Shown: one piece after another, positions 14,111 through 64,000 of the stretch
Numbering within the stretch: the stretch's first letter is position 1
Layout: every line of letters starts with the position of its first letter
Virus record (IMG/VR): IMGVR_UViG_3300044846_003474
Span: 44,261-108,260 of that record
DNA: 64,000 bases
Source of the DNA: a virus
Reading direction: 5' to 3' (one strand)
Program-made: the position numbers and the translations under genes
Notes under the pieces: generated by a model
Databases searched by the model: none
What the model was told of the DNA's origin: nothing
Seen by the model: only the letters and a program-made list of their open reading frames with translations

Positions 14111-15034
14111 ATGAGAAATTTAATCCATGAATGTCTAATTGAGGAGTTTAGACCTGATCTAATAAAAGAGTGTACAATCGCTGCGGTAAGGTTAGATAAT
14201 GGTGTTGTTTTAGCGAAAAATAGAGACAGAGGATACAAATCAAACGTTGAGGTTATACACGAATTAATAGATGATGTGGAAATTCTTTATTGGAGAGACG
14301 TTGACACCGATTGGAGTGAAGGAATGAACGAATATGGTATTGGGATTGTTAATTCAAGTCTTATGGTTTCTCAGGACGAAAAAGAAGGTAAAGAAGTGGC
14401 AAAAAATAGGAAAGATAAAACCGCAAAAAAAAGACTGTCATACGATGGTAATAAAATTAGAAAAGCGTTAACATATAAAACATTACCTAAAGTAATTAAA
14501 TCAATTGTTGGTTATTCAGGTGAGGATAAGAAAGATGTCGGTTTAAAAGGAGAAACATTTGTTTCAGATTCAAACAACATATATGTTGTTGAGATGACAT
14601 CAAAACATTCACCAATAATAAAAAAATTGAAAAAAGAACAAAAAGTTCTTGTTAGAACAAATCACGGTGTTTACCATAAGGAAGCCGGTTATACAAAAGG
14701 TGAGAAAAAAAAATCATCACATTCAAGGATGAATTTAGCAAAAAAACATTTAAAAGATGTTAAAACACCACAAGAAGTTATTGATAGGTTAAAGGAAAAA
14801 TATAAAGAGGATCCGTTTTTAAATCCATATAGAACCGATAATATGTACCATATGCAAACAACAGGTCAAATTATGATGGATCTTGAAAAAAAAGAAATTG
14901 TAATTAGAATGGATAATGAAATGGGGAACTTAGTTGGGATCAAGAATAAATTACCTAAAGATTATACTCCCAAATTAAAAGTAAAAATTGAGAACGAAAA
15001 AACTCACAATAAAGGTAAAAAATTACCAACATAA
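14111..15034 (+). CDS. Ntn-hydrolase family protein with an N-terminal propeptide
   Basis: The 307 residues fit the N-terminal nucleophile hydrolase fold (acyl-CoA:6-APA acyltransferase / choloylglycine hydrolase group). The mature N-terminus would be Cys21 in CTIAAVRLDNG, followed by AKNRDRGY, YGIGIVNSSL and VRTNHGVY, the usual active-site landmarks. Residues 1-20 (MRNLIHECLIEEFRPDLIKE) form a propeptide ending L-I-K-E directly before the cysteine, which matches the (I/L)-x-E rule of T4-type prohead proteases. It likely cleaves an amide bond; substrate unknown. Confidence 0.78.
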   Translation: MRNLIHECLIEEFRPDLIKECTIAAVRLDNGVVLAKNRDRGYKSNVEVIHELIDDVEILYWRDVDTDWSEGMNEYGIGIVNSSLMVSQDEKEGKEVAKNRKDKTAKKRLSYDGNKIRKALTYKTLPKVIKSIVGYSGEDKKDVGLKGETFVSDSNNIYVVEMTSKHSPIIKKLKKEQKVLVRTNHGVYHKEAGYTKGEKKKSSHSRMNLAKKHLKDVKTPQEVIDRLKEKYKEDPFLNPYRTDNMYHMQTTGQIMMDLEKKEIVIRMDNEMGNLVGIKNKLPKDYTPKLKVKIENEKTHNKGKKLPT

Positions 15035-15062
15035 AAAAACCCACCTTGTGAGTGGGTTTAAA
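15031..15062. terminator. Bidirectional terminator
   Basis: AAACCCAC-CTTGTGA-GTGGGTTT between convergent genes, with A-run and T-run on either side. Confidence 0.75.
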
Positions 15063-15063
15063 T

Positions 15064-15741
15064 TTAAAAATTGTTTACATCTGTACTATTTTCTTCTTCA
15101 TCTTCTCTTTCTACAGATCCAAGGTTTAAGTCAATAGCTGGTATCGGAGGAGTTTTAGTGGCAAATGTTGTTTTAGCAAAAGATATTACTTGTAAAGTTG
15201 TAAGTGCTATGTTAATCCATTCTTTTACGTTCATTTGGTTTCCTTTCTTTTCTTCCGCCTTCTGTTTCAGTCCCTGCAATACTAACTGTTGTTGATTTAA
15301 AGATTTAAATTTCTCCGTCAACACTTTACATCTTTGTTTATTTGCCCTGTCGCCAAATATTTTTAATTTCTGGCATTTCTTGTCTATTTCGTCCGATGTC
15401 GTCTGTATATTTTTGACTATTGCTTCAACTTGCATTTTAGTATTTTCTATTGCCTGTTGTTGTTTAATTGCACTAATATTAGTATTTAGTTCCGATTGAA
15501 GCGATTTAATATTCTGTAGTTGTGATTCAAGTTTTGATAAAATAGTATTATTTTCAGAATTTGAAATCACTGGTGTCGAAATCTCAGGTTCAGGTTCAGG
15601 TCCAAGTCCAGGTCCAGATTTTTTAATCGGAACTGGTGTTGGGTCTGGTGTATTGTATTCAAATAAAAATTCTTTTTTTATTGCATTCCTATGCATCCCC
15701 AATATTCTTTCTTTTTCACTTTCGCTAATTATTAAATTCAT
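15064..15741 (-). CDS. Class C tagged coiled-coil protein
   Basis: The N-terminus MNLIISESEKERILGMHRN is a class C tag, followed by FLFEYN, a second possible cleavage site. After a Pro/Glu linker comes a long Gln/Lys-rich coiled coil (about residues 65-160) and a hydrophobic stretch near 170-195. The C-terminus is acidic. No enzymatic motif. It is immediately upstream of the membrane-active neighbours at 15752 and 15971 in genome order, so it may be part of the lysis/head boundary region, but its function is unknown. Confidence 0.65.
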   Translation of the reverse strand: MNLIISESEKERILGMHRNAIKKEFLFEYNTPDPTPVPIKKSGPGLGPEPEPEISTPVISNSENNTILSKLESQLQNIKSLQSELNTNISAIKQQQAIENTKMQVEAIVKNIQTTSDEIDKKCQKLKIFGDRANKQRCKVLTEKFKSLNQQQLVLQGLKQKAEEKKGNQMNVKEWINIALTTLQVISFAKTTFATKTPPIPAIDLNLGSVEREDEEENSTDVNNF

Positions 15742-15751
15742 TTTTATATTA

Positions 15752-15922
15752 TTACTTTTTTTTGTTTATAATTGACCAAATAGCTCCCGTTAAAGTTAAA
15801 ATACCACCTGTTAATTCAGTAAACAGACTTTCGTCTATAAGGCCTTTTGTAATTAAAATACCACCGATAAATGTTAATGAGTGTCTTACAATACCTAAAA
15901 GTTGTTCTTTAGAAAATTTCAT
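15752..15922 (-). CDS. Holin-like small membrane protein (Pam3-gp28 type)
   Basis: The 56-residue product starts MKFSKEQLLGIVRHSL. It has two hydrophobic segments (LTFIGGILITKGL and LTGGILTLTGAIWSII) and ends in a basic KKK tail. The pattern R-H-x-L-T-x-x-G-G-x-L-x-x-K-G-x-(D), then a short loop and a Trp-containing second helix, matches the Pam3-gp28 putative holin family. It would permeabilise the inner membrane for the wall hydrolases. It sits downstream of an AT-rich motif (TATATTTATTG). Confidence 0.75.
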   Translation of the reverse strand: MKFSKEQLLGIVRHSLTFIGGILITKGLIDESLFTELTGGILTLTGAIWSIINKKK

Positions 15923-15970
15923 AATTTTGTTTTTTATAGTTTATTTATAACAATAAATATATCAAAAACA

Positions 15971-16063
15971 TTATTTAGACCATTTATCTTTTAAAAATAA
16001 ATAAGTATATATTGATAATATAATAATTGGAGTAAGGATTGAGACAATTATTTCTGATGTCAT
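15971..16063 (-). CDS. Tiny single-pass membrane protein (30 aa)
   Basis: The frame MTSEIIVSILTPIIILSIYT continues to KDKWSK and stop. It is one hydrophobic helix with a basic end, placed just before the holin-like gene on the same strand. It could be a lysis accessory protein. It is short enough that chance cannot be ruled out. Confidence 0.45.
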   Translation of the reverse strand: MTSEIIVSILTPIIILSIYTYLFLKDKWSK

Positions 16064-16190
16064 AATTATTGTTTTTATATAAACGTAAATAAAATTTTAA
16101 AGTTTTAGTTAATTAATATTGATGTAAAAATAGTTTTTATTAACCAAGCATTAATTAATATTGTGGACCATATGAGATAAAAGCCCTAAG

Positions 16191-16280
16191 TAATCAAAAA
16201 AGGATTCGAACCAATACAACCGTTTTTAACTCGGTCTCCCCAATAAGATGGGTAGCGTCTACCAATTCCGCCATTTGATT
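16191..16280 (-). tRNA. tRNA-Leu-like gene with irregular anticodon arm
   Basis: The acceptor arms AATCAAA and TTTGATT pair fully. The D arm is GCGGAATTGGTAGACGC as in leucine tRNAs, and a long variable arm (ACCG-CGGT) and T loop TTCGAAT are present; CCA is not encoded. The anticodon stem around ACCCATCTTATTGGGG does not give a clean 5-bp/7-nt arm. If forced, the loop TCTTATT has anticodon TTA with C33 instead of U33. The T stem has only three pairs. It may be decayed, edited or an unusual functional tRNA. Confidence 0.6.
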
Positions 16281-22603: not shown

Positions 22604-24031
22604 TTACCTAATGTATCTACGTAAATTCTTTTTGATAATTGAATCTAAGTTTTTGTTGTTGTTTTTATTAATTGTTTCACTAATAACACTTTTAATTGAG
22701 TTGTTTAATGACTCTTCTAATGATCTTGGTGTTTGTGTTACCGGTTCTCTTATACCATAAGGACTTGTTGATCCTTGTAATTGAGATAATTGAGCTTCAA
22801 GGTTTTTTGAGAACATACCTAAACCAACTTTGTTTCGAACACAGGTTCTTACTAATTGTTTAGTTTGTTCCAATTTTTGTGCATATGACGCATCAACTCC
22901 AGCCAAATCTAACGCTTCCGCACAATCTTCATCCGTACCATATTTTTCACAATTTGATAATTGTTGTATTGCCGCTTGACAAGCCGGTTTATTTGCCTTT
23001 TGTTTGTCAAGATCTTTCAATCCTTGTTTTGCTCCACCTCTTCCTAATTCTTTTTGTTGTGCAACTATATCTTTATATGAAACATTTTTAGCCGCCTTTG
23101 CTTGTTCTGGACTCATTTTCCAAATACGTCTTCCTCCATCAGTTTTAATATATTCCATAACTGCCGAATCACAATATGCTTTTCCTTGTCCATCACATAA
23201 TGCTTTTAATGTTGTTTCGCTTCTAATTTCCGCAGTACCTGGTAATGGTCTTGTTCTTGTGAAACCAAGAGTTGATAAGAATGACTCAACCTCTACTGGA
23301 ATATCATAAAGTTTTTCTTGTGTTCCAACATCTGACCATATAAAGAATTTATTTGGTTGTGATTTAAACGGTCCTATTCTTGTCGACAAATTAAATTTAT
23401 CAATGTAATTAACACCATCATCACCAGTACCTGTTGCCAAATCTATTTTCACATAGTTTCTTCCATCTTCAGGTTTTGTTTTGAAAAAACTATATCCAGT
23501 GTCTTGAGTACCTAAATCACTTAACAAAGTGTCAATTTGTTGTTGTTGATCAGCAGTTAAATTATTTCGTTGTGATGCTAAATTTTGAGTTACCTCAAAT
23601 TCATCGCAATACCAACCATGTGCCGCTAAATAATTTAAATTTGGATCGGGACTTGCTTTAACTGCAGTTCTATTAATCGCTAAATAAGCCTTAGGGTTTT
23701 TTGCAAGTGCTACGGGATCCGTAGACGGTCTTTCAAACATATAAAGGTCTCTTCCGTCGGGAGTTAATATTTTCATAAAACTATCTCCAGCTTGAACGCT
23801 AGGGGCAACTTTACTAAAGGCGTAAAGATAATCTTTACCTAACTGGTATATTTTGGGGTCACTAACAGTATATCCTTTCTTTGTCCAACAACCAACATTA
23901 ACAGCTCTTTTTAATGGACTATCAGATACTTCAATAGGTAGTTCACCTTGTTCAGTTATTAAAGGTTTTACGTTACCCAACTCAGACTCAAGTAGGGACA
24001 TCATTCTTTTTATTTCGTTATTAATACTCAT
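22604..24031 (-). CDS. Tagged cargo-like protein (475 aa), unknown function
   Basis: The N-terminus MSINNEIKRMMSLLESELG leads to KPLITEQGE, a long tag ending L-I-T-E-Q. The body carries paired cysteines (GWYCDEF, ALCDGQGKAYCDS, CQAAIQQLSNCEKYGTDEDC) and alternating beta/alpha segments. A second site SVISETINK lies near the C-terminus, which ends basic (LRRYIR). Internal cysteine pairs suggest disulfides in an exported or virion protein. No family recognised. Confidence 0.68.
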   Translation of the reverse strand: MSINNEIKRMMSLLESELGNVKPLITEQGELPIEVSDSPLKRAVNVGCWTKKGYTVSDPKIYQLGKDYLYAFSKVAPSVQAGDSFMKILTPDGRDLYMFERPSTDPVALAKNPKAYLAINRTAVKASPDPNLNYLAAHGWYCDEFEVTQNLASQRNNLTADQQQQIDTLLSDLGTQDTGYSFFKTKPEDGRNYVKIDLATGTGDDGVNYIDKFNLSTRIGPFKSQPNKFFIWSDVGTQEKLYDIPVEVESFLSTLGFTRTRPLPGTAEIRSETTLKALCDGQGKAYCDSAVMEYIKTDGGRRIWKMSPEQAKAAKNVSYKDIVAQQKELGRGGAKQGLKDLDKQKANKPACQAAIQQLSNCEKYGTDEDCAEALDLAGVDASYAQKLEQTKQLVRTCVRNKVGLGMFSKNLEAQLSQLQGSTSPYGIREPVTQTPRSLEESLNNSIKSVISETINKNNNKNLDSIIKKNLRRYIR

Positions 24032-24054: not shown

Positions 24055-24945
24055 TTAATATAATGCGATTTCGCCAGGTATTTCATTTTTACACAACGTC
24101 CAAACTTCTCTTTCGTCAATAGATGTATTACCAGTTTTTTCTTTTAATGATGATTCAGTGTTAGGACCAAATTTACCTGTTTGTTTAATACCTAAACAAC
24201 CTTGTAGTTGCCACACCACATTATTATCTACGTCTTTACAACCAAGTTTATAAGTACCTGAACAACTTTTATATTCAATAGTGTCACCATCTGAAGTTTT
24301 TGTTCCTTCTTCATCACCCTTATTACCACCATCACCCTCATTACCACCACCACCTTCTGTAGACCCATCATCATTAGCCTTTTCAGTTGCTTTAATTGCA
24401 TTTGTTAAGGGTTGTCTAATATATGTGTCCCATTTTGTTGTGGAAAATTTAGAAAAATCACCCACAAACCCGTCATATAAATCTTCACCATATATTGACT
24501 CATATTCTGAGGCAACTTTACAATAATCAGGTATTGATTTAATTTTTAATAATGAACTTTTAATCCCTTCATTATCTGTATCACCAAAAATAAGTAATGT
24601 TTTTCTTCTAAGAGCATCCCCAAGTTCTTTTGCAATTTTTTCATGTTCGCCATTAGGTTGAACTGGGTTACCCAATTTAGACGTATCACAAGAATTATGT
24701 AATAATTTAACTGATTGTTGAGCGTCTCCACCTTCCCATTTGTAAGCCTGAACACCACCAGCAATAACTGCCGCTCCTACCACAACCAATCCAGCCTTTT
24801 TTAAAAGACTCATTGGTTTTTTATCGTCTTCTTCAATTTCACTTTCGTTAATTAAATTAAGGTATTGTCTACCTGTAGATTTTTGGTGCATTTCCAAGAT
24901 TCGATTCTTTTCTTCTCCTGAACTATCAAATGATATTTTTTTCAT
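24055..24945 (-). CDS. Class C tagged membrane protein with peptidoglycan-binding-like C-terminus
   Basis: Class C tag (EEKNRILEMHQKS) running to LNLINESE, then one hydrophobic helix (LVVVGAAVIAGGVQAY). A mid-domain has IPDYCKVASEYESIYGEDL, and after a Gly/Glu linker a C-terminal VWQLQGCLGIKQTGKFGPNT segment resembles PG_binding_1. The same plan appears in the gene at 44789-45877, so the two are paralogues. A virion-carried wall-binding protein is a reasonable inference. Confidence 0.7.
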   Translation of the reverse strand: MKKISFDSSGEEKNRILEMHQKSTGRQYLNLINESEIEEDDKKPMSLLKKAGLVVVGAAVIAGGVQAYKWEGGDAQQSVKLLHNSCDTSKLGNPVQPNGEHEKIAKELGDALRRKTLLIFGDTDNEGIKSSLLKIKSIPDYCKVASEYESIYGEDLYDGFVGDFSKFSTTKWDTYIRQPLTNAIKATEKANDDGSTEGGGGNEGDGGNKGDEEGTKTSDGDTIEYKSCSGTYKLGCKDVDNNVVWQLQGCLGIKQTGKFGPNTESSLKEKTGNTSIDEREVWTLCKNEIPGEIALY

Positions 24946-46778: not shown

Positions 46779-46804
46779 TACCAACAACTTTTAAGTTGTT
46801 TAAT
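46774..46804. terminator. Weak bidirectional hairpin
   Basis: ACAACTTTTAAGTTGT with flanking A/T, between the convergent SlyD-like gene and the gene at 46804. Confidence 0.5.
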
Positions 46805-50891: not shown

Positions 50892-51203
50892 TTACCTGTT
50901 TTCTTCATAATATCTTTTAGTCTCATCAAAAAAGATTAAATCAAACTCTTTTGATAGTTTTTTACTGATTTCAACCTCATTTTCCTCATCAAGATCATAA
51001 AAATTTGGGATATCGTACATAATAAATTCTACAACCGAATCTTTTACGGTGTCGTAATAACGTTCAAATCCTTCGTTTTTTCCATATTTATTGTTATAGA
51101 ATGCCGGAACCTGATCTTTAAGTTCTCGTTCAAAGATTGGAAGTATATGTAGATACCTCCTTTTTATGTAATTATACTGTGATTCTGTTAGAATTATTAC
51201 CAT
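50892..51203 (-). CDS. MKIIITE-family paralogue (103 aa)
   Basis: Start ATG 51203 (MVIILTESQYNYIKRRYLHI). The body has FYNNKYGKNEGFERYYDTV and VEFIMYDIPNFYD; it ends KRYYEENR. The R-R-Y motif and the acid/aromatic end are as in the relatives. Confidence 0.65.
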   Translation of the reverse strand: MVIILTESQYNYIKRRYLHILPIFERELKDQVPAFYNNKYGKNEGFERYYDTVKDSVVEFIMYDIPNFYDLDEENEVEISKKLSKEFDLIFFDETKRYYEENR

Positions 51204-51205
51204 AT

Positions 51206-51514
51206 TTACTCTCCAAAATATTTTGGACACCTTTTGTTAATCTCTTTATCATAAAACACCTTTATTTCATCATTTAACATATAAGAAAGTTCATTTCTAA
51301 AATTTGTCCACGATCTTGGGTCAATTTCCAACCTTTCTTCCTCCGTAACCTCATCAATTGCGGCTTTTAACACATCTCTTTTGTACTTATCAAAATCATG
51401 GTAATCCCTATAATAACAAGGATTGGACCCATCCATACGATTATGAACCTCATTTTTTATTTGGAAGTACCGTCTTGTTAATTTATTTTGATTTTCTGTT
51501 AGTATAATTTTCAT
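51206..51514 (-). CDS. MKIIITE-family paralogue (102 aa)
   Basis: MKIILTENQNKLTRRYFQIK starts the protein; NPCYYRDYHDFDKYKRDVLK gives the D-F/Y element; it ends with CPKYFGE. First gene of a tight run of six family members (51514 down to 48702), behind the motif GTATTTATAA. Confidence 0.66.
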   Translation of the reverse strand: MKIILTENQNKLTRRYFQIKNEVHNRMDGSNPCYYRDYHDFDKYKRDVLKAAIDEVTEEERLEIDPRSWTNFRNELSYMLNDEIKVFYDKEINKRCPKYFGE

Positions 51515-51587: not shown

Positions 51588-52016
51588 TTAGTTTTTTTTA
51601 AAGTTTTTTATCACCTCATCTTTAGTGATATATCCTTTATTTGGTTTTTTACTTCTAAATACATCATTTTTGGCATAATGTAACAGTTCTTCCAAAACTT
51701 CAACAAGATCGGAAGGTTTAATTTCAGAATAATGTTTATGATTAATTATGTCATTAAAATCACTTTTAAGATCCATTTTTTTATCTGAAAGGTTTTCATT
51801 GACCCTTCTGTTGGGCAATCTACGATACCTTCTTTCTGTTAGGTTTTGTTCAGGGTTATTTTTGTTTTCAACACCTACACTATCGGCATAGATATCGGTT
51901 CTTCCTTCATATTCTGGGAAATCATCTTTTTCGCCATCACCAGGATCTGATTCTCTGATTATTTTTTTAACTAACATATTAATGTCTTTTTCTGTAAGTC
52001 TTACTATTTTTTTCAT
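51588..52016 (-). CDS. Class A tagged protein (142 aa)
   Basis: Tag MKKIVRLTEKDINMLVKKII ends I-I-R-E-S. The mature part contains a basic RRYRRLPNRRVNENL and a helical C-terminal domain (SDLVEVLEELLHYAKNDV). A second site V-N-E-N is present. No family. It lies 2 nt after the Tae4-like gene and should be co-transcribed with it, which makes it a candidate partner or immunity-type protein; that is context only. Confidence 0.66.
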   Translation of the reverse strand: MKKIVRLTEKDINMLVKKIIRESDPGDGEKDDFPEYEGRTDIYADSVGVENKNNPEQNLTERRYRRLPNRRVNENLSDKKMDLKSDFNDIINHKHYSEIKPSDLVEVLEELLHYAKNDVFRSKKPNKGYITKDEVIKNFKKN

Positions 52017-52018: not shown

Positions 52019-52702
52019 TTAATTTGTTTTACATTTATAATTTGATTTTTTATATTCTTCCCAAGAATTATACCCACACTTTGTTGCTACTTCCTCATTT
52101 GTTCCACCAACTCCCCAAAAATATATTGTACCTCCATTTTCTTCAGGATAAGTAGTACCATCTAATGGACCACCTTTTAGACCATTCTTCCACCAACTCC
52201 ATATTGTTGCGTGACCAGTAGCTCCCTCCCCAAAACCACATGGGGTACATATAAAAACACCACTTCTTCCTGGTCCAATTTTCTGTTGTACTTCTTCTAA
52301 ACTTGTAACCTTATCAATTTTAACGTCAGGGTTACCCCATAATTTTATTAATTTATCTTTAAGACGTTTTGCTGAAGTTACAATACCTTTACCTTTAAAT
52401 TGCCCATTGGTAACTCTAAAACTTGCAGGTAGAGTTCCACCAGCGGCGGTTATCGCTAACGATACTTTAGTTGCACACCCATTGGTAAATTCAACAAATG
52501 GCATTTTTCCTTGTTCTCTTTCATTTTTAAATACTTCATCAAAAGTTCCATCTGAACCCAAATCATTATATGTAGTATAAGTTGATTCTAATTGACCTCT
52601 ATTTAATGAATCGGCAGATGACTCAAGTAGTAAACTTTCAGTTATAATTTTCTTAAGAACTTTTTTTAGTTCATATTCCGTAAGTTTTACTATTTTTTTC
52701 AT
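52019..52702 (-). CDS. Class A tagged Tae4-like peptidoglycan amidase
   Basis: The tag IVKLTEYELKKVLKKIITES has two sites (I-I-T-E-S and L-L-L-E-S). The mature domain reads FVEFTNGCATKVSLAITAAG, then SAKRLKDKLIKLWGNPDV, then GVFICTPCGFGEGATGHATI. This is the order of Tae4-type (T6SS effector) DL-endopeptidases, with catalytic Cys in N-G-C-A and His in G-H-A-T. T6SS-type effectors are delivered toxins; here the same fold would be carried in the virion. Active-site residues look intact. Confidence 0.8.
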   Translation of the reverse strand: MKKIVKLTEYELKKVLKKIITESLLLESSADSLNRGQLESTYTTYNDLGSDGTFDEVFKNEREQGKMPFVEFTNGCATKVSLAITAAGGTLPASFRVTNGQFKGKGIVTSAKRLKDKLIKLWGNPDVKIDKVTSLEEVQQKIGPGRSGVFICTPCGFGEGATGHATIWSWWKNGLKGGPLDGTTYPEENGGTIYFWGVGGTNEEVATKCGYNSWEEYKKSNYKCKTN

Positions 52703-52765: not shown

Positions 52766-53095
52766 TTACCAACGATATTTATTACACTTACGAACAAAAA
52801 GATTTCTAATATAATTCCCGTAGTTCTCCTCAACAATTTTATTTAACATACTGATGTCCATATCCGAACCACCTTTTTCGGAAGTATCGTGGAAGAAACT
52901 CCAATTATCCCTAATGAATTCTTGAATAGAATGGTCCATTATATTTTCAAAAAAAGTATCCGCATTATAATTACGACACCACCATGAACCATCTTCATTT
53001 AGTTCATACCCTTCAATATGATCCTCAACAATATCAATAAATTGTTGTACTCGTCTAATGAGATAGTTTTGGTTTTCGGTGATAATGATTTTCAT
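52766..53095 (-). CDS. MKIIITE-family paralogue (109 aa)
   Basis: Tag MKIIITENQNYLIRRVQQFI. GSWWCRNYNADTFFENIMDH holds an aromatic/cysteine element; the end VRKCNKYRW is basic. Second cluster of the family (53749 down to 52766). Confidence 0.65.
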   Translation of the reverse strand: MKIIITENQNYLIRRVQQFIDIVEDHIEGYELNEDGSWWCRNYNADTFFENIMDHSIQEFIRDNWSFFHDTSEKGGSDMDISMLNKIVEENYGNYIRNLFVRKCNKYRW

Positions 53096-53108: not shown

Positions 53109-53453
53109 TTAATAATCCGAACAATCTTCATCTTCATCACATTCGCAATCCCTATATTCTTCTTTAATTCGGGAACGATATTTACTAACAATTACGTCAG
53201 ATACAAAAGCCACAAGTTCGTCAGAAAATAATTGTTCTTTACCAATAAGGTAATCATATGAATTAATAAATGTTACTGCGGAATCATTTACGAGATTAAT
53301 TTCATAACTATCATAATCTCCGTAGTTACAAGGATCGGTATAATCAAATCCTTCAATAACAATATCCTTTAAGTGATTCATTAATTCACGGTCATTCAAT
53401 CTCCTACGTAACCATAGAATTTTACTTTGAGATTCAGTTATGATTATTCGCAT
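53109..53453 (-). CDS. MKIIITE-family paralogue (114 aa)
   Basis: Tag MRIIITESQSKILWLRRRLN, then DPCNYGDYDSYEINLVND and an acidic, cysteine-rich end (DCECDEDEDCSDY). The start overlaps the stop of the upstream member by 10 nt. Confidence 0.65.
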   Translation of the reverse strand: MRIIITESQSKILWLRRRLNDRELMNHLKDIVIEGFDYTDPCNYGDYDSYEINLVNDSAVTFINSYDYLIGKEQLFSDELVAFVSDVIVSKYRSRIKEEYRDCECDEDEDCSDY

Positions 53454-53749
53454 AATTCAAATGATTTATAAAAAAATTCTTTTAGTTTATCGTAATAACC
53501 ATAATCCTCAAAAAATCTATACAGATCTTTATTTTTATATGAATCTTTAATCCCAAGTGTTAGATTAATTTCCCACACAATTCCCAGCATAACGTCATCG
53601 GCAAAATATAATGCGTCTTTTTCTGTGTTTGACCATATTCTACAAATGTCTTTAGGGTCCAACTCGGAAATAATTTTATCCGCAATACTAAGTCTTCGTA
53701 CAAATGAACGAATTTGTTTATCTTGGTCTTCTGTTATTATTATTTTCAT
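53444..53749 (-). CDS. MKIIITE-family paralogue (101 aa)
   Basis: Start ATG 53749 (MKIIITEDQDKQIRSFVRRL), 1 nt after the upstream gene. LDPKDICRIWSNTEKDALYF and a C-terminal FFYKSFELCE. A divergent member with the tag and R-R motif conserved. Confidence 0.63.
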   Translation of the reverse strand: MKIIITEDQDKQIRSFVRRLSIADKIISELDPKDICRIWSNTEKDALYFADDVMLGIVWEINLTLGIKDSYKNKDLYRFFEDYGYYDKLKEFFYKSFELCE

Positions 53750-54159: not shown

Positions 54160-54390
54160 TTATTTTCTTTTTTTTCTTCCCTGACAATGTGCCCTTTGAG
54201 AAAAACCTTTAGGGTTACTACAATCTATAGATTTTTTATATTTTTGAGTCCATTTTTCAGAAATCTCAACCCAATCCTCAACATTTATTTCTGAATCAAA
54301 CCGTGATACATTATCATCAGATTGTTCATTAACAATTTTATTTATAAGATTAGTTAATTGTGTTTCAGTAAGTTTTATTACTTTTTTCAT
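54160..54390 (-). CDS. Class A tagged small protein with basic Cys motif (76 aa)
   Basis: Start ATG 54390 (MKKVIKLTETQLTNLINKIV), tag ending I-V-N-E-Q. The C-terminus reads YKKSIDCSNPKGFSQRAHC then QGRKKRK. This cysteine/histidine-containing basic ending recurs in phage proteins and may bind zinc or nucleic acid. First gene of an operon after a terminator-motif module. Confidence 0.7.
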   Translation of the reverse strand: MKKVIKLTETQLTNLINKIVNEQSDDNVSRFDSEINVEDWVEISEKWTQKYKKSIDCSNPKGFSQRAHCQGRKKRK

Positions 54391-54410: not shown

Positions 54411-54438
54411 ACAAAAAATCCCCTTATTAAAAGGGGAT
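54411..54438 (-). terminator. Hairpin terminator
   Basis: Minus-strand GATCCCCTTTTAATAAGGGGAT followed by TTTTT, after the gene at 54427. Confidence 0.75.
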
Positions 54439-54894
54439 CATTTTATCAAGACCTTCAATGACTATTCCACATTGTTCGTATAATTCGTAATTGAGGTCGG
54501 TTGTGTTCTTTGCTCTTGTGGTTACCACCTGATGTTCTTCCTTCGTGATTGCAACTGTGGATCCGTATTCCACCAAGAAAACAACAAACTCATCCAAAGT
54601 CATGTCTTTGTTTTGGGACAACTTCTCAAACAATATTTTCATTGCGTGTTTACGTTGAATAAAGTGGTCGTGTACAGGTTTACCACCTGCAATCACACTA
54701 CTTGATTCCAAACCTGTTCTAAAATAAGAAATATTTGTTAAATCAAATAGGGGGTTTCTATTCAGGGAGAAAAATGCATCCAATTTATTTGGGTCATTCT
54801 TGATTGAATCGTACAATCCAATCTGACATTTAAATATATCCAAAGTTAAATTAATCTTTGTTATCTGTGATTCACTAAGTATAACCTTCATCAT
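54427..54894 (-). CDS. Class B-like tagged protein (155 aa)
   Basis: The tag MMKVILSESQITKINLTLDI ends I-L-S-E-S. The body carries GGKPVHDHFIQRKHAMKILF, a His/Lys-rich helix that could be catalytic or nucleic-acid-binding, and LDEFVVFLVEYGSTVAITKE. Not recognised. It overlaps the next gene by 20 nt. Confidence 0.63.
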   Translation of the reverse strand: MMKVILSESQITKINLTLDIFKCQIGLYDSIKNDPNKLDAFFSLNRNPLFDLTNISYFRTGLESSSVIAGGKPVHDHFIQRKHAMKILFEKLSQNKDMTLDEFVVFLVEYGSTVAITKEEHQVVTTRAKNTTDLNYELYEQCGIVIEGLDKMIPF

Positions 54895-56521: not shown

Positions 56522-56968
56522 TTATTCTGGATTGTAGATTTTAAAAAATGACACAATATCATTTTTTAATTTATCCGCATCTTTAAAGTTTATTGAAATG
56601 TCAGACCCATCCATCTTATAACCTTTGTTTGTCCACCAATTGATCATATCTGTTTGATTTTCTCTATCTTCAGTGTTAAATAAATGCATTCTTTCTTTAG
56701 GTAAGTCTGGAGATGTTGACGAAATTGCAAAACCGTATTTACCTTTAGCCGATTTAGCGGTTCCCCAATTCAAACTTTGAGATGGAATATCATCATAGTC
56801 CGTAAATGTTAATACTCTTGGTGAATAAGAAAGGGTTTTTAATTTAGAAACCAAAGTAATCCAATCAGGATTATTTCTACCAATTTTCACCTGTTCAATC
56901 AATAACCTTCTTTCCAAAATCTGATTGGATTCTTGTATGTGTCTAATTTTACTGTAACTTCTATTCAT
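56522..56968 (-). CDS. Class E tagged protein (148 aa)
   Basis: MNRSYSKIRHIQESNQILER then RLLIEQ is a class E tag ending L-I-E-Q, shared with the gene at 61803. The mature domain (SPRVLTFTDYDDIPSQSLNW, KGKYGFAISSTSPDLPKERM) is alpha/beta. No family recognised. It could be an enzyme; nothing proves it. Confidence 0.66.
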   Translation of the reverse strand: MNRSYSKIRHIQESNQILERRLLIEQVKIGRNNPDWITLVSKLKTLSYSPRVLTFTDYDDIPSQSLNWGTAKSAKGKYGFAISSTSPDLPKERMHLFNTEDRENQTDMINWWTNKGYKMDGSDISINFKDADKLKNDIVSFFKIYNPE

Positions 56969-57007: not shown

Positions 57008-57346
57008 TTACTCATCACAATCTTCATCCTCTAAAACCTTATCATAATATTCTTTAACTTTATCAAAGAATATTTCATACATCCATTCATTCATAGTTTC
57101 AGATAATTCATCAATATTAACCGTATTTTCTTCTGACCAAGGTAAATTTATATCTTTTACAATCATATCGTATATGACTGCGTTACGAACATCACCATAG
57201 TAATCATAAAAAGCGTAGTACGGATCATATGTATAATCACAAGGGGGGTAGTAACGCATCTTTTCATCAACAAGTTGATCAATACGACCAAACCTACGTT
57301 TAAAGAAAAGATCAACAAATTGTGATTCAGTTATAATGATTTTCAA
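57008..57346 (-). CDS. MKIIITE-family paralogue (112 aa)
   Basis: Tag MKIIITESQFVDLFFKRRFG. YYPPCDYTYDPYYAFYDYYG is a tyrosine-rich element; the end is EDEDCDE. Third cluster of the family, overlapping its upstream partner by 20 nt. Confidence 0.65.
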   Translation of the reverse strand: MKIIITESQFVDLFFKRRFGRIDQLVDEKMRYYPPCDYTYDPYYAFYDYYGDVRNAVIYDMIVKDINLPWSEENTVNIDELSETMNEWMYEIFFDKVKEYYDKVLEDEDCDE

Positions 57347-57650
57347 AATATTCTTTCAGTTTTGCCTCATATCTTGAGGATATAAATCGTTTAATTGGTG
57401 CGGAGAATTCATCCCAATATTGATCTCCCCAACATTTTTCCACACCATAATCTTCATCAACTCGGTCATATGTGTAATTAATTACCATATCCATAAAACC
57501 TCCAATAGTATCACGAAGTGAAACAAATTCTTCCATGGCCTCATCAACAATATCGTCAATCCCATCAAGATCTATCCTTCTCTTAATACAGTTAGATAAT
57601 TGATAATAATCCAATGATTCTTTTTGACTTTCAGTTATAATGATTTTCAT
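57327..57650 (-). CDS. MKIIITE-family paralogue (107 aa)
   Basis: Tag MKIIITESQKESLDYYQLSN, then KRRIDLDGIDDIVDEAMEEF and an aromatic C-terminus (EYFENHYN). It is 2 nt after the gene at 57653 in transcript order. Confidence 0.65.
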   Translation of the reverse strand: MKIIITESQKESLDYYQLSNCIKRRIDLDGIDDIVDEAMEEFVSLRDTIGGFMDMVINYTYDRVDEDYGVEKCWGDQYWDEFSAPIKRFISSRYEAKLKEYFENHYN

Positions 57651-57652: not shown

Positions 57653-58579
57653 TTAAGAAAATGTAACCTTACTTTTAATTGATTCAAGACCTTTACCATT
57701 TGCTTCAACCCATTTATTCTGACCTTTAAGTGAATAATAATATTTATCACCACTTAATTTATAATCATAAGTACTATCATTGGTGGTATTTATTTTTTCT
57801 TGTGGTAAACCCTGTGAGTATCTATCCAAACCAGATTTAACGGATTGTAAAACTTCCGTTGACGGTAAGTAATTGGGGTCTCCCACCTTTACCGAGACTT
57901 TTTCTTGTGGTAAACCCTTCCAAAATCTTACCAACTGAGGCCCCATGGTTTCTAAAAGTTTAATAAAATCATTTAACCATAACTTTTGTTCTTCATTCAT
58001 AACACCTTTAGCTCCAATTTGACCATTATAATATAATTTTAATTGATTTAATACCTTATCAAAACCTCCATTGTCTCCTGCGTGTTGTAATGTAGCTTCT
58101 TTTAACGGACCCATTAGTGTGTTTTTACCAATATCCATCATAGTTTGTCCTGAGGAAACATTAATATTAGAAGCCTCTTCCGATGTTACCCCATACATTT
58201 TTGCAAAATCACTTAAAAAAGTTGCCGATTTGTCTTCCCCTTGGAGGTTCATTGATTGTTTAAGTTTATCCATTTCTTTTGTTGTTACCTCACCCTCATC
58301 ACCATCGGCGCAATATCCATCACCTTTTTTACAAATCCACACAGGTATACCCTTTTCCTCCATAAACTTCTTTAAAGAATCGTTAAAATCTTTATCGGTC
58401 CAACTACCTGTAGTCGCAGATGAAAGATTTGTTCCATAATAATAATTTAAAAATGTTGCTTGGTCTTTCGTACCTTGAGCTTTAGGGGATTGTAATGACT
58501 GAGGACTTAATTTATCACCAACCATTTCGTATAAACCACGAATTCTATTTTTCTCTTCTTCTGTTATAATAAATTTCAT
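57653..58579 (-). CDS. Class C tagged protein (308 aa)
   Basis: Start ATG 58579 (MKFIITEEEKNRIRGLYEMV). A beta/alpha region with TDKDFNDSLKKFMEEKGIPV and a cysteine pair (VWICKKGDGYCADGDEG) follows; then a helical part and a C-terminal beta region with YKLSGDKYYYSLKGQNKWVE. An internal near-repeat G-L-P-Q-E-K occurs twice. First gene of an operon with two MKIIITE paralogues. Function unknown. Confidence 0.65.
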   Translation of the reverse strand: MKFIITEEEKNRIRGLYEMVGDKLSPQSLQSPKAQGTKDQATFLNYYYGTNLSSATTGSWTDKDFNDSLKKFMEEKGIPVWICKKGDGYCADGDEGEVTTKEMDKLKQSMNLQGEDKSATFLSDFAKMYGVTSEEASNINVSSGQTMMDIGKNTLMGPLKEATLQHAGDNGGFDKVLNQLKLYYNGQIGAKGVMNEEQKLWLNDFIKLLETMGPQLVRFWKGLPQEKVSVKVGDPNYLPSTEVLQSVKSGLDRYSQGLPQEKINTTNDSTYDYKLSGDKYYYSLKGQNKWVEANGKGLESIKSKVTFS

Positions 58580-58650: not shown

Positions 58651-58959
58651 TTATGATCCCCACGCAGGATTTGCAATAATCAATTTACCGTCCTCAACTC
58701 TTGGAATTTTTCCCATATCATTGTGATCAGCAATTTCAAAATCATCTTCATAGAATTTCTCACCGTCAAATACAATGTAGAATTCACCTTCATCGTCTTT
58801 ACCTCTATGACTATAACTTTTAGACTTTAAAGATGAATGTGCGGCATCTCCCATAGAATCAAATCCACTTGCGGTATAATCATCTTCGTATTGTTCTCTA
58901 ACAATACGTTTAACCAATTTAGTTAAATCTCTTTCTGTTAATCTTACAATTCTTGACAT
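58651..58959 (-). CDS. Class A tagged small protein (102 aa)
   Basis: Tag MSRIVRLTERDLTKLVKRIV ends I-V-R-E-Q. The mature part is an acidic beta domain (GEFYIVFDGEKFYEDDFEIA) ending ANPAWGS. Not recognised. One gene, flanked by terminators on both sides: a stand-alone cargo cassette. Confidence 0.68.
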   Translation of the reverse strand: MSRIVRLTERDLTKLVKRIVREQYEDDYTASGFDSMGDAAHSSLKSKSYSHRGKDDEGEFYIVFDGEKFYEDDFEIADHNDMGKIPRVEDGKLIIANPAWGS

Positions 58960-59054: not shown

Positions 59055-59492
59055 TTAAAAAATACCGTTGTATACACAATTTTTTAAATTTGATAATTCT
59101 CCTGATATTTTAGAGTAATTAGATTTATATAATTGATCTAACCCACCAGAAGTTGATTTTTTTCCATTGTTAAATGTTTTTAATGTATTCTTTTCTAAAT
59201 TATCGTATTTAAACTCATCTTCATTGTAAACTACACCATAAACAGTTTGAATAATACCAGAATTTATACCCATAGACATTAAAAGAAGTCCGTACACAGT
59301 ATCCCCATATCCATTAGTTATTTTATATAATTCTGGATATTTTGATTTATTAAAACATTTACCAATAGAAGATTTACCCATTTTAAGTTGTTGTTGACTC
59401 ATTTGTTCCTCACTAATTAATCTACTTTCACTAATAACTCGTTTAACCAATCTAGTTAAATCTCTTTCTGTTAATCTTACAATTCTTCCCAT
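59055..59492 (-). CDS. Class A tagged protein (145 aa)
   Basis: Tag MGRIVRLTERDLTRLVKRVI ends V-I-S-E-S, with a second site L-I-S-E-E. The mature part has GNGYGDTVYGLLLMSM-like sequence near the middle (TNGYGDTVYGLLLMSMGINS) and two cysteines far apart (GKCFNKS, KNCVYNG). Function unknown. Stand-alone cassette. Confidence 0.68.
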   Translation of the reverse strand: MGRIVRLTERDLTRLVKRVISESRLISEEQMSQQQLKMGKSSIGKCFNKSKYPELYKITNGYGDTVYGLLLMSMGINSGIIQTVYGVVYNEDEFKYDNLEKNTLKTFNNGKKSTSGGLDQLYKSNYSKISGELSNLKNCVYNGIF

Positions 59493-59600: not shown

Positions 59601-60041
59601 TTACATATCATATATACTTTCATAATAAATATCAATTAAATCATCAATTTTTAAACTCATAACATTAAGTCCGAGCAATTTCATTAAATAATTTTCACTC
59701 CAAAAGTTACCATCTTTGTCCATTAAATCACTTCCACTTTGATACAGATATTTCTTGTTTATAACGTTGTCTTTATAAACGTCTATTGAATACATCGGAC
59801 CAAATTGAATTTTATCTTTAAAAGATTTTGGCGTACTAAGTGATAAATATTGTTCTGTAAACGATTTAGGGATTTCGGAATATCTATTAATTTCTTTAAT
59901 TTTTCCATTAAAGTCAATTTCAAAATTATTTTTAATAATTTCTTTTAATTTTCTACTTTTTGGAGTCAAACTATCTTCTCTAATCACTTGTCTAACGATA
60001 CGACCCAAATCCCTCTCCGTTAATCGTATAATTTTTTTCAT
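59601..60041 (-). CDS. Class A tagged protein (146 aa)
   Basis: Start ATG 60041 (MKKIIRLTERDLGRIVRQVI), tag ending V-I-R-E-D. The mature domain is mixed alpha/beta (NNFEIDFNGKIKEINRY, GPMYSIDVYKDNVINKKY) and ends DDLIDIYYESIYDM. No family. The cassette has the motif 2 nt before its ATG. Confidence 0.66.
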   Translation of the reverse strand: MKKIIRLTERDLGRIVRQVIREDSLTPKSRKLKEIIKNNFEIDFNGKIKEINRYSEIPKSFTEQYLSLSTPKSFKDKIQFGPMYSIDVYKDNVINKKYLYQSGSDLMDKDGNFWSENYLMKLLGLNVMSLKIDDLIDIYYESIYDM

Positions 60042-60878: not shown

Positions 60879-61406
60879 TTATTTTGAATGTTGATGATCA
60901 TATGTATTATCTCCCATACGCATTACTTTATCTGCTTTGAATTGTCCAAATCTTTTTTCATAATCATCGCTCATTCTAGCCTGATCCGAATAATCGTGAG
61001 CAACTTCTAATTTTAAAATTCTTTCAATTCTTTTAGGGTCGTCTCCTTTGAATAATAAAACTTTTCTGTCTCTAAAACCTTGATCTCTTGTATCGTCCGT
61101 AACATCAATACCCCAATATGTTTCATCAGTATCATTATCACGATACTCTTTCATGGTAAAGAAGTTACCTTCTTGGTCACCACCAGTTGATTTTCTAACA
61201 TTACCTGTTGGGGTCATTTTATTTATTAGTGAACGGTTACTTAGATAATCATATGCCCTTTTTATAATTGCACCACCTAACGCAATTCCACCTAAAGTTA
61301 ATAAAACACTTTCGTTAATATTTTTTTTACTTTTCTTTTCTTCTATGATAACTCTTTTAACCAATCTTGTTAAATCTGATTCAGTTAATCTTATAATTCT
61401 TGCCAT
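60879..61406 (-). CDS. Class A tagged protein with a membrane segment (175 aa)
   Basis: Tag MARIIRLTESDLTRLVKRVI ends I-I-E-E; a second site I-N-E-S follows. Then a hydrophobic helix (VLLTLGGIALGGAIIKRAY) and an alpha/beta domain (EGNFFTMKEYRDNDTDETYW, RDRKVLLFKGDDPKRIERI). It is followed 8 nt upstream by the tagged gene at 61415, so they form a pair. Function unknown. Confidence 0.66.
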   Translation of the reverse strand: MARIIRLTESDLTRLVKRVIIEEKKSKKNINESVLLTLGGIALGGAIIKRAYDYLSNRSLINKMTPTGNVRKSTGGDQEGNFFTMKEYRDNDTDETYWGIDVTDDTRDQGFRDRKVLLFKGDDPKRIERILKLEVAHDYSDQARMSDDYEKRFGQFKADKVMRMGDNTYDHQHSK

Positions 61407-61414: not shown

Positions 61415-61714
61415 TTATTTTGTTTCTCTTATTTCATCAGTTATAGCTCTCATTTCATCAACTAACGATTTTAATGATTTCAAATCCAGTATGATGTTTC
61501 CGATAACAAATGCGGTTTCTTCTCCGTTGCCACTTTCTGCAGTTTGTTGTGCTTGGTGAAGACCTCTCATAATTTTTTTAAATTTCATATCGAATATTTC
61601 AGAACTATTTTCATATATACGATCTCTATACTCTACACTCGTATTGTTCTCATTAATAACTCGTTTAACAAGTCTTGTTAAATCTCTTTCTGTTAACCTT
61701 ACTGTTCTTCTCAT
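61415..61714 (-). CDS. Class A tagged helical protein (99 aa)
   Basis: Tag MRRTVRLTERDLTRLVKRVI ends V-I-N-E-N. The mature part is a helical hairpin or bundle (KFKKIMRGLHQAQQTAESGN, LDLKSLKSLVDEMRAITDE). No cysteines, no enzyme motif. It lies behind a module nearly identical to that of 62531. Confidence 0.67.
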   Translation of the reverse strand: MRRTVRLTERDLTRLVKRVINENNTSVEYRDRIYENSSEIFDMKFKKIMRGLHQAQQTAESGNGEETAFVIGNIILDLKSLKSLVDEMRAITDEIRETK

Positions 61715-61802: not shown

Positions 61803-62444
61803 TTAGTTTTTACTATTACACCCATAAATTCTATTACTACTTCCAATATTTTTAAAATCCAGAAGAAAAATAAAAGTAAAAGTTGCCAATGCTGAAGTCT
61901 TCCAGTCCAATGGACAGTCAAAAAGTTTACTTTCAAGTTTATAAATATAACATTTAAACAATCTTAGTATAACCCAAACAAGTATAAGAGACCAAGCCCA
62001 AATTGGAATTTTTGATCCTGATTTAATCATAATATTTAATATATCTTTTAAAGTTTTTAACACGGGGTCATTAACTTCTTCATTTAGTTTAACGTCTTCA
62101 GACCTGTATTGTTGAGGATTATTTTTTACTTCTTTAATTTTTTTAATTAATTCAATAATCGAATCCGCGGACATTGATCCCAATACTCCATCCAGATATA
62201 TGTTAATATTTTCTTTAATATCATCGTATTTACCTTCAATACTTTTAATATTATTGAGTTCTTGTTTAATATTAATACCTAATGATGTTATATTATTGTC
62301 AATTAACTTAATTTTTTCAAGTCCCGCTCCTGATTCATAATTAATACACATTTGACTATTAGATTCTACTTTATTTAATAAACGTTGTTCCAACATTAAA
62401 TTAGATGATTGTATGTGCCTGATTTTACTGTAACTTCTATTCAT
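61803..62444 (-). CDS. Class E tagged membrane protein (213 aa)
   Basis: Start ATG 62444 (MNRSYSKIRHIQSSNLMLEQ). The class E tag is shared at DNA level with the gene at 56522. A coiled-coil-like middle precedes KLNEEVNDP. The C-terminal part has hydrophobic segments (IPIWAWSLILVWVILRLFKC and TSALATFTFIFLLDF). It could insert into the host membrane after injection. Confidence 0.66.
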   Translation of the reverse strand: MNRSYSKIRHIQSSNLMLEQRLLNKVESNSQMCINYESGAGLEKIKLIDNNITSLGINIKQELNNIKSIEGKYDDIKENINIYLDGVLGSMSADSIIELIKKIKEVKNNPQQYRSEDVKLNEEVNDPVLKTLKDILNIMIKSGSKIPIWAWSLILVWVILRLFKCYIYKLESKLFDCPLDWKTSALATFTFIFLLDFKNIGSSNRIYGCNSKN

Positions 62445-62530: not shown

Positions 62531-63025
62531 TTATAATCCAGAGTCATCATATGATATTGATCTTGGATCGTATTCACTTACACTAAAACCATTATCTTCA
62601 AAAAACCTTAAAACTTTTTTTGCGTCTTTCCTTGTCGCTGGTAAAGATGGATGATTTCCCATCAGAAGAAATTCCATATTATCGAAATATTTACCTATTT
62701 CAAAATCTCTTTTAATACCATTATCAAGGTCTTCTGTTTCCAAAGTATAAGTGTTAGATGTGTTAGATTCTTTTTTGAGACTAATCATTCTTAACTCTAT
62801 TTCTTTTTCTTGCCCCAAATGTTTTACAACCATTGTGATATTATTTTTTTCTTGACCCAAACCAAATTCTTTTCCGTGTTCACGAAATCTATCAGACAAT
62901 TTATTAAATCCTTTTTCACCCGCAACATCAGCAGCTTTTTCATACGTTGATCTATCAAGTTCCGTAATGGTTCTTTTAACAAGTCTTGTTAAATCTCTTT
63001 CTGTTAATCTTACAATTCTTCCCAT
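62531..63025 (-). CDS. Class A tagged protein (164 aa)
   Basis: Tag MGRIVRLTERDLTRLVKRTI ends T-I-T-E-L. The mature part is charged (FRKHGKEFG-like: SDRFREHGKEFGLGQEKNN) with a beta sheet (TMVVKHLGQEKEIELRMISL) and a C-terminal RKDAKKVLRFFEDNGFSVSE helix/strand. No family recognised. Confidence 0.66.
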   Translation of the reverse strand: MGRIVRLTERDLTRLVKRTITELDRSTYEKAADVAGEKGFNKLSDRFREHGKEFGLGQEKNNITMVVKHLGQEKEIELRMISLKKESNTSNTYTLETEDLDNGIKRDFEIGKYFDNMEFLLMGNHPSLPATRKDAKKVLRFFEDNGFSVSEYDPRSISYDDSGL

Positions 63026-63041
63026 AATTTATATATTTTAT

Positions 63042-63178: not shown

Positions 63179-63195
63179 ATTAAAAAGGAAGAATT

Positions 63196-63324
63196 TTAAT
63201 TATCTTCTTCGTTCTCATCTGAATCCTCTTCAGAACCTTGAACTTTTATAAAATGGGGGTTTCTAAATTTATTAATTTTTAATGACCAGATACTCCATAT
63301 CCTATGTCGTAAAGATGTCGTGGA
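63196..63324 (-). other. Open frame without a start codon, overlapping the end of the gene at 63279
   Basis: In a different frame from the gene at 63279 the minus strand reads ...IWSIWSLKINKFRNPHFIKV then QGSEEDSDENEEDN and stop. There is no ATG after the preceding TGA. It could be the product of a frameshift at the end of the tagged gene, a gene with an unusual start or a remnant. Confidence 0.35.
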
Positions 63325-63779
63325 TCATTACTTGTAATTTCATTATCATCTTCTATCACCTTGTATACGAATTTAAGACGATAAGAATCGTTTCTAAAAT
63401 CATCTGATTCATAACTATGTTGGGCGTGTTTAGCACGCTCATAAGCGACCACATTATGAGAGTTAAACTTAAATTCAATTCCATTTTCTTCACCTATTTC
63501 TTCTATAACCCTATCTACTATATCTTTCAATATATACCCAACTTCTACACTATCCTTCATAAAATTTTCATAACGTATTTCAATATCTACATTTTTACCA
63601 TTAAACCGTACTGACGCTTGAGGAGAATTTGTAAATGGTTTATCTCTATTGATTTCAATTGATCTGTTTAATCTTCTTTCTAACGAATCAACCCATTCAG
63701 GTTCTGAGTTCTCCGTTATAACTCGTCTAATAATACGTTTTAATTGTTTGGACTGTTGTTCTGTTATAATGATTTTCAT
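63279..63779 (-). CDS. Protein with combined class B and class A tags (166 aa)
   Basis: MKIIITEQQSKQLKRIIRRV then ITENSE joins a class B start (I-I-I-T-E) to a class A-like helix ending V-I-T-E-N, giving two cleavage sites in one leader. The mature domain has FNGKNVDIEIRYENFMKDSV and HNVVAYERAKHAQHSYESDD. It supports the view that A and B are versions of one signal. Function unknown. Confidence 0.68.
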   Translation of the reverse strand: MKIIITEQQSKQLKRIIRRVITENSEPEWVDSLERRLNRSIEINRDKPFTNSPQASVRFNGKNVDIEIRYENFMKDSVEVGYILKDIVDRVIEEIGEENGIEFKFNSHNVVAYERAKHAQHSYESDDFRNDSYRLKFVYKVIEDDNEITSNDPRHLYDIGYGVSGH

Positions 63780-63793
63780 ATATGGTTATTTAT

Positions 63794-63803
63794 TAATAAA
63801 TAT
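63794..63803 (-). promoter_or_regulatory. AT-rich start-proximal motif
   Basis: Minus-strand GATATTTATTA, 14 nt before ATG 63779. Confidence 0.45.
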
Positions 63804-63815
63804 CACATAAAACAA

Positions 63816-63846
63816 AAAACCCCACTCTTATTAGGAATGGGGTTTA
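63816..63846 (-). terminator. Hairpin terminator
   Basis: Minus-strand AACCCCATTCCTAATAAGAGTGGGG followed by TTTTTT. Confidence 0.75.
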
Positions 63847-63872
63847 TAAATATATTATTTATTCGTCGGAAC

Positions 63873-64000
63873 TCATATCTTCCTCTGGATTACCCGTTTA
63901 ACAATACGGGTTAAATCTGATTCTTTCAGAGATTCATTATTATCACTTTCTGTAATATCTTTATAAACATCATTAATAAACTCCCAAATAGGTGAATAAT
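63873..64000 (-). CDS. C-terminal end of a further gene (runs off the right edge), with a tag-like helix at its C-terminus
   Basis: The visible part reads SPIWEFINDVYKDITESDNN, then ESLKESDLTRIVKRVIQRKI and TGA. The class A helix (SDLTRIVKRVI) is therefore at the C-terminus. One frame over, the same DNA gives EEDMSSDE and TAA at 63862-63864, the type of ending expected after R-V-I-x. A one-base deletion or insertion after the helix may have truncated it. Confidence 0.5.
   Translation of the reverse strand, partial: YSPIWEFINDVYKDITESDNNESLKESDLTRIVKRVIQRKI

Follow-up and report, generated by a model that had tools for sequence, protein, structure and literature searches.

Why would one phage begin several dozen otherwise unrelated proteins with the same few short N-terminal segments, and what would become of those segments afterwards? 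The question is raised by a 64,000-nucleotide stretch of the IMG/VR virus record IMGVR_UViG_3300044846_003474 (bases 44261−108260 of a 108,260-base record; hereafter the window, and the record G000). A preliminary description had noted in it about 40 unrelated proteins with recurrent N-terminal tags, and had proposed that the tags load cargo into the phage head and are clipped off at maturation. We conclude that the tags are very probably exchangeable, protease-cleaved capsid-targeting sequences like those of T4, with many more members and in several classes. The strongest line of evidence is the placement of a predicted catalytic cysteine directly behind unrelated tags in one family of tagged proteins. 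The whole-genome comparison set comprised three relatives, G001 (296 kb), G002 (273 kb) and G003 (229 kb), and a capsid-protein scan of IMG/VR returned at least 600 relatives of G000, of which the best 80 were kept.

Recurrent N-terminal tags

Local alignment of residues 1−30 among the 128 G000 proteins of at least 90 amino acids (aa) yielded 148 pairs, involving 43 proteins, with scores of 40 or more. The control segments of the same proteins yielded 1 (residues 31−60), 1 (residues 61−90) and 4 pairs (C-terminal 30-mers). The contrast was smaller in G003, where true homologues were kept in (68 N-terminal pairs vs 12, 12 and 19 in the controls). Four tag classes were defined by the consensus sequences MKIIITExQ (class A), MKKIVRLTExDLTRLVKRVIxE (class B), ILxEELxxxKYL..IISEQ (class C) and ITEEEKxRILxMH (class D). 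Hidden Markov models (HMMs) of these tags found 50 (B), 41 (A), 16 (D) and 9 (C) matches at E ≤ 0.01 among 1316 N-terminal segments from five phages, and 0−1 matches among the middle (952), C-terminal (827) and shuffled (1316) control segments. This HMM test is partly circular, because its seeds came from these genomes; the pairwise alignment above and the class-B DNA pattern described below are free of that circularity. At E ≤ 0.05, the tagged genes numbered 36 in G000, 33 in G001, 29 in G002, 17 in G003 and 2, both of class C, in the cultured Flavobacterium phage vB_FspM_immuto (immuto).

In the interval 14111−64000 of the window, gene calls (longest non-overlapping open reading frames (ORFs) of at least 50 aa) numbered 84, and 34 of them were tagged by HMM (four classes, E ≤ 0.05). 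Two further weak HMM matches (E 0.9−0.99) and seven tags assigned by eye (genes starting at 14111, 22604, 26108, 28086, 28812, 56522 and 61803) bring the total to about 43, bearing out the preliminary count. Tags also occur beyond the interval, at window position 707−2077 and, left of the window, at G000 32965 and G000 33921.

The class-B profile gave 6−14 matches in each of eight records of the tag-bearing clade, used as positives; 33 random viral contigs of at least 30 kb (of 80 listed) gave no match. In the genome_contigs collection (84,980 species), the class-B pattern matched once, at a site that was not an N-terminal tag, and the tags as tblastn queries against phage records returned nothing or only the query phage's own records.

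Tag ends, junctions and the prohead protease

We scanned IMG/VR with a class-B DNA pattern that covers RLTExDLxR.VKR only and stops four residues short of the tag end. At least 80 loci were listed, some of them from one contig or from near-identical contigs. All 90 matches listed were N-terminal, with an ATG five codons upstream in 84 and within ten codons in all, and every one of the 90 has a Glu four positions past the pattern. Among these listed matches, position P3 is I in 79, L in 8 and V in 3, which is not the phiKZ-type S/A-X-E motif, while P2 varies freely (N 28, K 26, S 15, R 8, others) and conservation collapses just after the Glu. By script, [ILV]xE was found at the helix end of 42/49 class-B, 9/11 class-C, 9/13 class-D and 30/44 class-A tags, compared with frequencies of 10, 16, 12 and 24% in windows of equal length further along these proteins; two of the class-B misses are script artefacts by eye. 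Thus, the statement that nearly all tags end in (I/L/V)-x-E holds for classes B and C and is weaker for D and A. All seven class-A misses of G000 lie within the class-A row at 48.7−57.7 kb, where only the tag-internal ITE fits.

Orthologues carry different tags before the same body. In one family with an [ILV]xE-AP junction, IINE precedes APIDY in G001, VIKE precedes APVDY in G000 and RLME precedes APIDY in G002, and a more distant, weaker homologue in G003 has LYE before API. Another pair, 57% identical over 491 aa, begins with MKIIITESQYRQIIKE then SGIR in G003 and with MKNLIRRIIKEETTKLLNE then SGIR in G002, where the tag ends KLLNE. VLNE, VLME and VIKE alternate before RYMFFSNLEQ in a further set of orthologues, the family of G000 32965. 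In this family, 33 distinct N-termini (71 ORFs) retain [ILVM]xE before the body, with M at P3 once, and E22 is the sole invariant tag residue besides Met1 among 25 aligned orthologues. A structure model of this family was weak (mean pLDDT, the predicted local distance difference test, 54.5; helix 9−23, dip 22−24 where the cut is expected) and was not used as evidence.

Left of the window, G000 carries a T4-type head cassette of terminase, portal, core-type gene, S77 protease, scaffold-type gene and major capsid protein, in the order portal-67-68-21-22-23 of the T4 record. The prohead protease, whose absence from tag-carrying phages had been named beforehand as ground for rejecting the proposal, is thus present: an S77 (gp21-type) gene about 5 kb left of the window (profile E 4.8e-23), with the blocks ELNHP and GxSSRG in common with T4 gp21. 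S77 was found in 12/13 large relatives; the contig of the remaining one breaks off about 1.3 kb upstream of its own capsid protein gene. The capsid protein itself has LINE then A in 80/80 of its closest relatives (77−96% identical; best 80 of at least 600), aligned with the column of SFLTE then A in T4 and, in two cultured relatives, of QIVSE then A (immuto) and QLISE then A (Microcystis phage Mel-JY01). Cleavage of the major capsid protein at this site is established in T4. According to passages of PMC9026906, T4 gp21 cleaves after L/I-X-E. Among the 30 longest tag contigs besides G001, 15 have S77; all 13 with a gp23 match over the cut-off have it, and one with a gp23 fragment below the cut-off lacks it.

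A gene for ribosomal protein S21 (bS21) lies inside the cassette on the opposite strand (G000 40168−40326, +; PF01165, E 2.0e-8). Lake bS21 phages with predicted Bacteroidetes hosts have the same cassette layout, opposite-strand bS21 included, and their account mentions neither tags nor packaged proteins in the passages concerned (PMC9723584; Chen et al. 2022). One 269-kb contig, G024, bears two S77 and two gp23 genes, at 31291 and 233494, and represents either two head cassettes or a chimaeric assembly.

An Ntn hydrolase with its predicted nucleophile behind the tag

The product of window gene 14111−15034 matches the AAT family of N-terminal nucleophile (Ntn) hydrolases over the cut-off (PF03417, E 6.7e-6), and the AAT profile reaches E ≤ 0.01 in 16/29 aligned members, this protein included. 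AAT-type Ntn hydrolases use an N-terminal Cys, which must be freed. The protein begins with MRNLIHECLIEEFRPDLIKE then CTIAAVRLDNG. We analysed the best 80 of 158 viral relatives, to which the counts in this paragraph refer. The residue before the Cys is E in 74/80 and the start Met in 6/80, and the 74 E-Cys junctions comprise 72 [IL]xE, one MNE and one FNE. Ahead of them stand 48 distinct N-termini, judged by the last 12 residues: they include class A (ILLTESQVNILDEQRLIQE then C), class-C-like (MKNINEEINRIQNIMGVTPKNSINE then C) and short helices (MKNLIRSILNEELHREVIHE then C), and some junctions lie within longer reading frames. In the cultured Chryseobacterium phage MA9V-2, the AAT protein starts MTSADNNAFINE then C, and a 1213-aa frame contains an S77 match (E 3.0e-8). 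The Cys stands at fixed spacing from KNRD, right after E or Met, in 80/80; the search motif required a Cys, yet every one of the 80 loci yielded one. One of the six scan patterns spanned the tag of gene 14111, and one aligned member (A6) had been trimmed to begin at its Cys. The Met-Cys copies come from contigs of 8−58 kb without gp23 or S77 matches, which are too short to be informative on the protease in those phages. No convincing solved homologue was found in the PDB.

A cut between Glu and Cys, as predicted here, would create the AAT active site. Apart from a cut at this point, it is difficult to see why unrelated tags should stop right at the catalytically required residue.

Promoter-like motif, cargo and competing readings

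A promoter-like motif, [AC]TATTTAT[AT], which in reverse complement we take to resemble the T4 late promoter closely, was first spotted by eye and then tested. Within 60 nucleotides upstream, it precedes 15/36, 20/33, 15/29 and 10/17 tagged genes in G000, G001, G002 and G003, compared with 17/113, 54/346, 47/301 and 37/218 other genes (enrichment p 0.0012, 4.8e-8, 2.5e-5 and 2.8e-4). Among orthologues of immuto genes labelled by the analyst, it precedes 17/39 structural vs 0/23 replication or metabolic genes (70 nucleotides), and it stands before the scaffold and the protease genes in all four genomes (4/4 each). The shared motif is consistent with tagged proteins being made alongside the head.

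The tagged genes, in window coordinates, are as follows; assignments are by HMM unless another basis is given.

707..2077 (−): 456-aa protein outside 14111−64000, tag MKDKYIQHLINKVIKE then APVDY; by eye and orthologues, which have other N-termini with [IL]xE then AP kept
14111..15034 (+): AAT/C45-type Ntn hydrolase, 20-aa tag ending LIKE before predicted nucleophile Cys21; PF03417, 80 relatives
15064..15741 (−): class D tag, end FLFE
22604..24031 (−): class C-like tag, PLITE then Q; by eye
24055..24945 (−): class D tag, LINE then S; hydrophobic segment
26108..26728 (−): class D-like tag; promoter-like motif upstream; by eye
27472..28089 (+): class A tag, LLLE then S
28086..28712 (−): HEIRH protein, short tag SLLNE; promoter-like motif upstream; by eye and orthologues
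28812..29426 (−): tag ending LIQYINE; by eye
29431..29841 (−): class B tag, ILKE
29922..30449 (+): class B tag, ILLE; orthologues tagged; promoter-like motif upstream; weak HMM, E 0.9
42611..43192 (−): class B tag
43242..44198 (−): tandem D and C tags, VIISE then Q
44251..44787 (−): class A tag, LLE then N; DUF6576 (HMM, Pfam)
44789..45877 (−): class B tag, VLNE; peptidoglycan-binding domain (HMM, Pfam)
45884..46267 (−): class D tag
46804..47397 (−): class C tag, VIISE then Q; two hydrophobic segments
47379..47699 (−): class B tag, ILNE
47986..48564 (−): class C tag, VISE then Q
48702..49613 (−): class A tag without second site
49615..50244 (−): class A tag
50246..50566 (−): class A tag
50568..50819 (−): class A tag without second site
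50892..51203 (−): class A tag
51206..51514 (−): class A tag without second site
51588..52016 (−): class B tag, IIRE
52019..52702 (−): class B tag, IITE; Tae4-type amidase domain (HMM, Pfam)
52766..53095 (−): class A tag
53109..53453 (−): class A tag without second site
53444..53749 (−): class A tag without second site
54160..54390 (−): class B tag, IVNE
54427..54891 (−): class A-like tag; weak HMM, E 0.99
56522..56968 (−): class E tag MNRSYSKIRHIQ...LLIE; promoter-like motif upstream; by eye
57008..57346 (−): class A tag without second site
57327..57650 (−): class A tag without second site
57653..58579 (−): class D tag, no helix-end site found
58651..58959 (−): class B tag, IVRE
59055..59492 (−): class B tag, VISE
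59601..60041 (−): class B tag, VIRE; a homologue in a relative bears a chimaeric A and B tag
60879..61406 (−): class B tag, VIIE
61415..61714 (−): class B tag, VINE
61803..62444 (−): class E tag; by eye
62531..63025 (−): class B tag, TITE
63279..63779 (−): class A start fused to class B end, VITE

The window also holds a full-length GOLLD RNA at 11356−11762 (−; RF02032, 292 bits, model positions 1−416), in a 1.8-kb region without long ORFs. Adjoining it is a tmRNA match at 10834−11243 (+; Rfam RF00023, 105.8 bits), with no ARAGORN call. At 16190−16280 (−), ARAGORN called a tRNA-like gene with a four-base anticodon (ctta), for which the Rfam tRNA match is weak.

The amidase and the zincin named among the cargo in the preliminary description correspond to the Tae4 domain of 52019−52702 (PF14113, E 1.7e-8; PDB Tae4 chain, E 6.4e-4) and to the HEIRH motif of 28086−28712. 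Tagged proteins of the relatives include lysozyme, GDSL and SET domains, and weak DHH matches. Only 4 of the 33 proteins scanned among the 43 tagged ones match Pfam over the cut-off; PADLOC and NCBIfam returned nothing on ten proteins each, and PHROGs, run on ten, gave endolysin matches for one. An effector arsenal is backed by a few domains, namely Tae4, the Ntn hydrolase, HEIRH and the relatives' enzymes. A structure model of the Tae4 cargo, built from two sequences, was useless (pLDDT 35).

Several observations weigh against the proposed targeting and clipping. The promoter-like motif is absent before the capsid (0/4) and terminase (0/4) genes, and 14/44 class-A tags lack a second site. None of the four tag classes occurs in Mel-JY01, whose capsid protein is similar. 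S77 also occurs in 4/6 random contigs of at least 90 kb, so that its co-occurrence with the tags, which was to be a check, is compatible with the proposal and not probative; we dropped it as proof, although S77 is present in all 13 gp23-bearing tag contigs. It is lacking in 6 of the 18 AAT-bearing records searched, one of them 274 kb long, and present in the other 12. The Pfam AAT match begins past the N-terminus and leaves Cys21 uncovered, so the prediction that this residue is the nucleophile draws on its conservation and on what is known of the family. Sites at junctions are not enriched genome-wide when all pairs with unaligned N-termini are counted regardless of tags (23/125 vs 20.5%). 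For pairs with dissimilar tags, a site lies near the mapped junction in 12/14 vs 46/76 for internal sites, which is only suggestive of kept sites, and in 5 of those 12 pairs the site lies deep inside the partner, away from its N-terminus. In view of these two junction tests, the clear cases of swapped tags are examples, not statistics. A literature search found no virion or N-terminal data for these phages, immuto and MA9V included.

Against these points stand the S77 gene, the T4-ordered cassette, the capsid site, the Glu in all 90 class-B tags listed, the kept junctions, the promoter-like motif and the Cys of the AAT family, which together support targeting and clipping. The competing explanation that fares best shares both steps, with the tags anchoring in the prohead core and being cut, and has most of the cargo working within the head, as core or inner body or in DNA condensation, uninjected. 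It would suit the conserved tagged proteins that adjoin the head genes (G000 32965 and 33921) and the slightly more acidic character of the tagged cargo (median net charge per residue −0.032 vs −0.019 for other proteins). The Tae4, lysozyme, GDSL, SET, weak DHH and Ntn hydrolase domains, however, suit the cell and not the head, and we consider a mainly in-head role unlikely.

It is quite improbable that the tags serve for docking at, or localisation to, some other compartment, such as the membrane or a replication site, and that the [ILV]xE ending is coincidental. The frequent lack of a second site in the window's class A would fit docking, whereas P1 and P3 are fixed with P2 free in the 90 class-B tags listed, [IL]xE stands right before the Ntn Cys in 72 of the best 80 relatives, and the late-like motif is common to tagged, scaffold and protease genes. 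Descent of the tagged proteins from one old paralogous family, recognisable by its N-terminus alone, is more improbable still: many class-A proteins of the window are alike in size and stand in a row, but just one G000 pair is similar at residues 31−60, the domains are unrelated and orthologues bear different tags, and the single-family explanation was rejected on the residue and orthologue comparisons.

Codon use bears on whether the shared 5' ends act as peptide or as nucleic acid. At identical tag residues, codon sharing in G000 is 53.7% vs 54.8% expected for class A and, just moderately above expectation, 58.8% vs 51.1% for class B, which points to selection acting on the peptide. The excess in G001 (B 66.0 vs 51.7%, A 61.5 vs 56.0%) and G002 (B 69.8 vs 54.8%, A 65.5 vs 62.4%) would fit recent copies. 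DNA or RNA elements, be they recombination cassettes or translation leaders that the phage-encoded bS21 might read, are the least probable explanation and were rejected on the codon divergence in G000, the reading frame and the Glu being kept at the protein level, although the relatives show some of the excess that such elements would leave.

For the capsid-targeting explanation, we propose that each tag, a short stretch at the N-terminus that probably forms an amphipathic helix behind an N-cap (T/S-E), would bind the scaffold core of the T4-type prohead during late gene expression. The S77 protease would cut after [I/L/V]-x-E and free the cargo inside the head beside the DNA, and at infection the cargo would be injected together with the genome. 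Several unrelated tag families would serve this one job and be swapped among cargoes. The AAT cargo would be a silent precursor, activated at head maturation when the cut exposes its Cys nucleophile.

The kind of system is already known from T4. Its IPI-III and Alt proteins resemble the tagged proteins in the S77 protease, the head gene order and the capsid site, and in a short N-terminal peptide before [L/I]-x-E with unrelated cargo behind like tags (passages of PMC9026906 and PMC12373910). T4 has three such internal proteins (IPs), vs 17−36 HMM-tagged genes per clade record here, and differs in that the present phages have tags of several unrelated classes, some of them tandem or chimaeric, and a probable proenzyme whose nucleophile the cut would expose. 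Passages of PMC12373910 report at least ten IPs across T-even relatives, and PMC9026906, in its T4 passages, describes capsid-targeting sequences as a possible mechanism for incorporating various proteins. The same source relates that a distant relative of gp21 cleaves many head and inner-body proteins of phiKZ, 201phi2-1 and SPN3US after Glu, 19 head proteins in 201phi2-1; the phiKZ motif is S/A-X-E, unlike the I/L/V-x-E found here, and its passages on these phages mention no shared families of address tags. In phage P1, the N-terminal 30 residues of DarB suffice for packing a reporter into the head, and the Dar N-termini have no consensus in the corresponding passages (PMC9024508), unlike the shared tag families described here. 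A literature search over open-licence PMC papers found no description of such a multi-class tag system. The novelty lies in how many tags each genome carries, in their several unrelated classes and the exchange among these, in the host group and in the probable Ntn proenzyme.

In general terms, we find it reasonably probable that Bacteroidota jumbo phages use a cargo-loading code, in which at least five interchangeable, protease-removed address peptides pack about 17−43 proteins per head and the maturation protease also activates packed proenzymes, the Ntn hydrolase being cut right before its catalytic Cys and active only inside the maturing virion. If true, the rule [tag]...[ILV]xE would pick out the packed proteins of a large, mostly uncultivated phage group and turn dozens of 'hypothetical proteins' into candidate injected effectors, and these phages would offer natural interchangeable head-loading peptides together with enzyme activation by capsid maturation.

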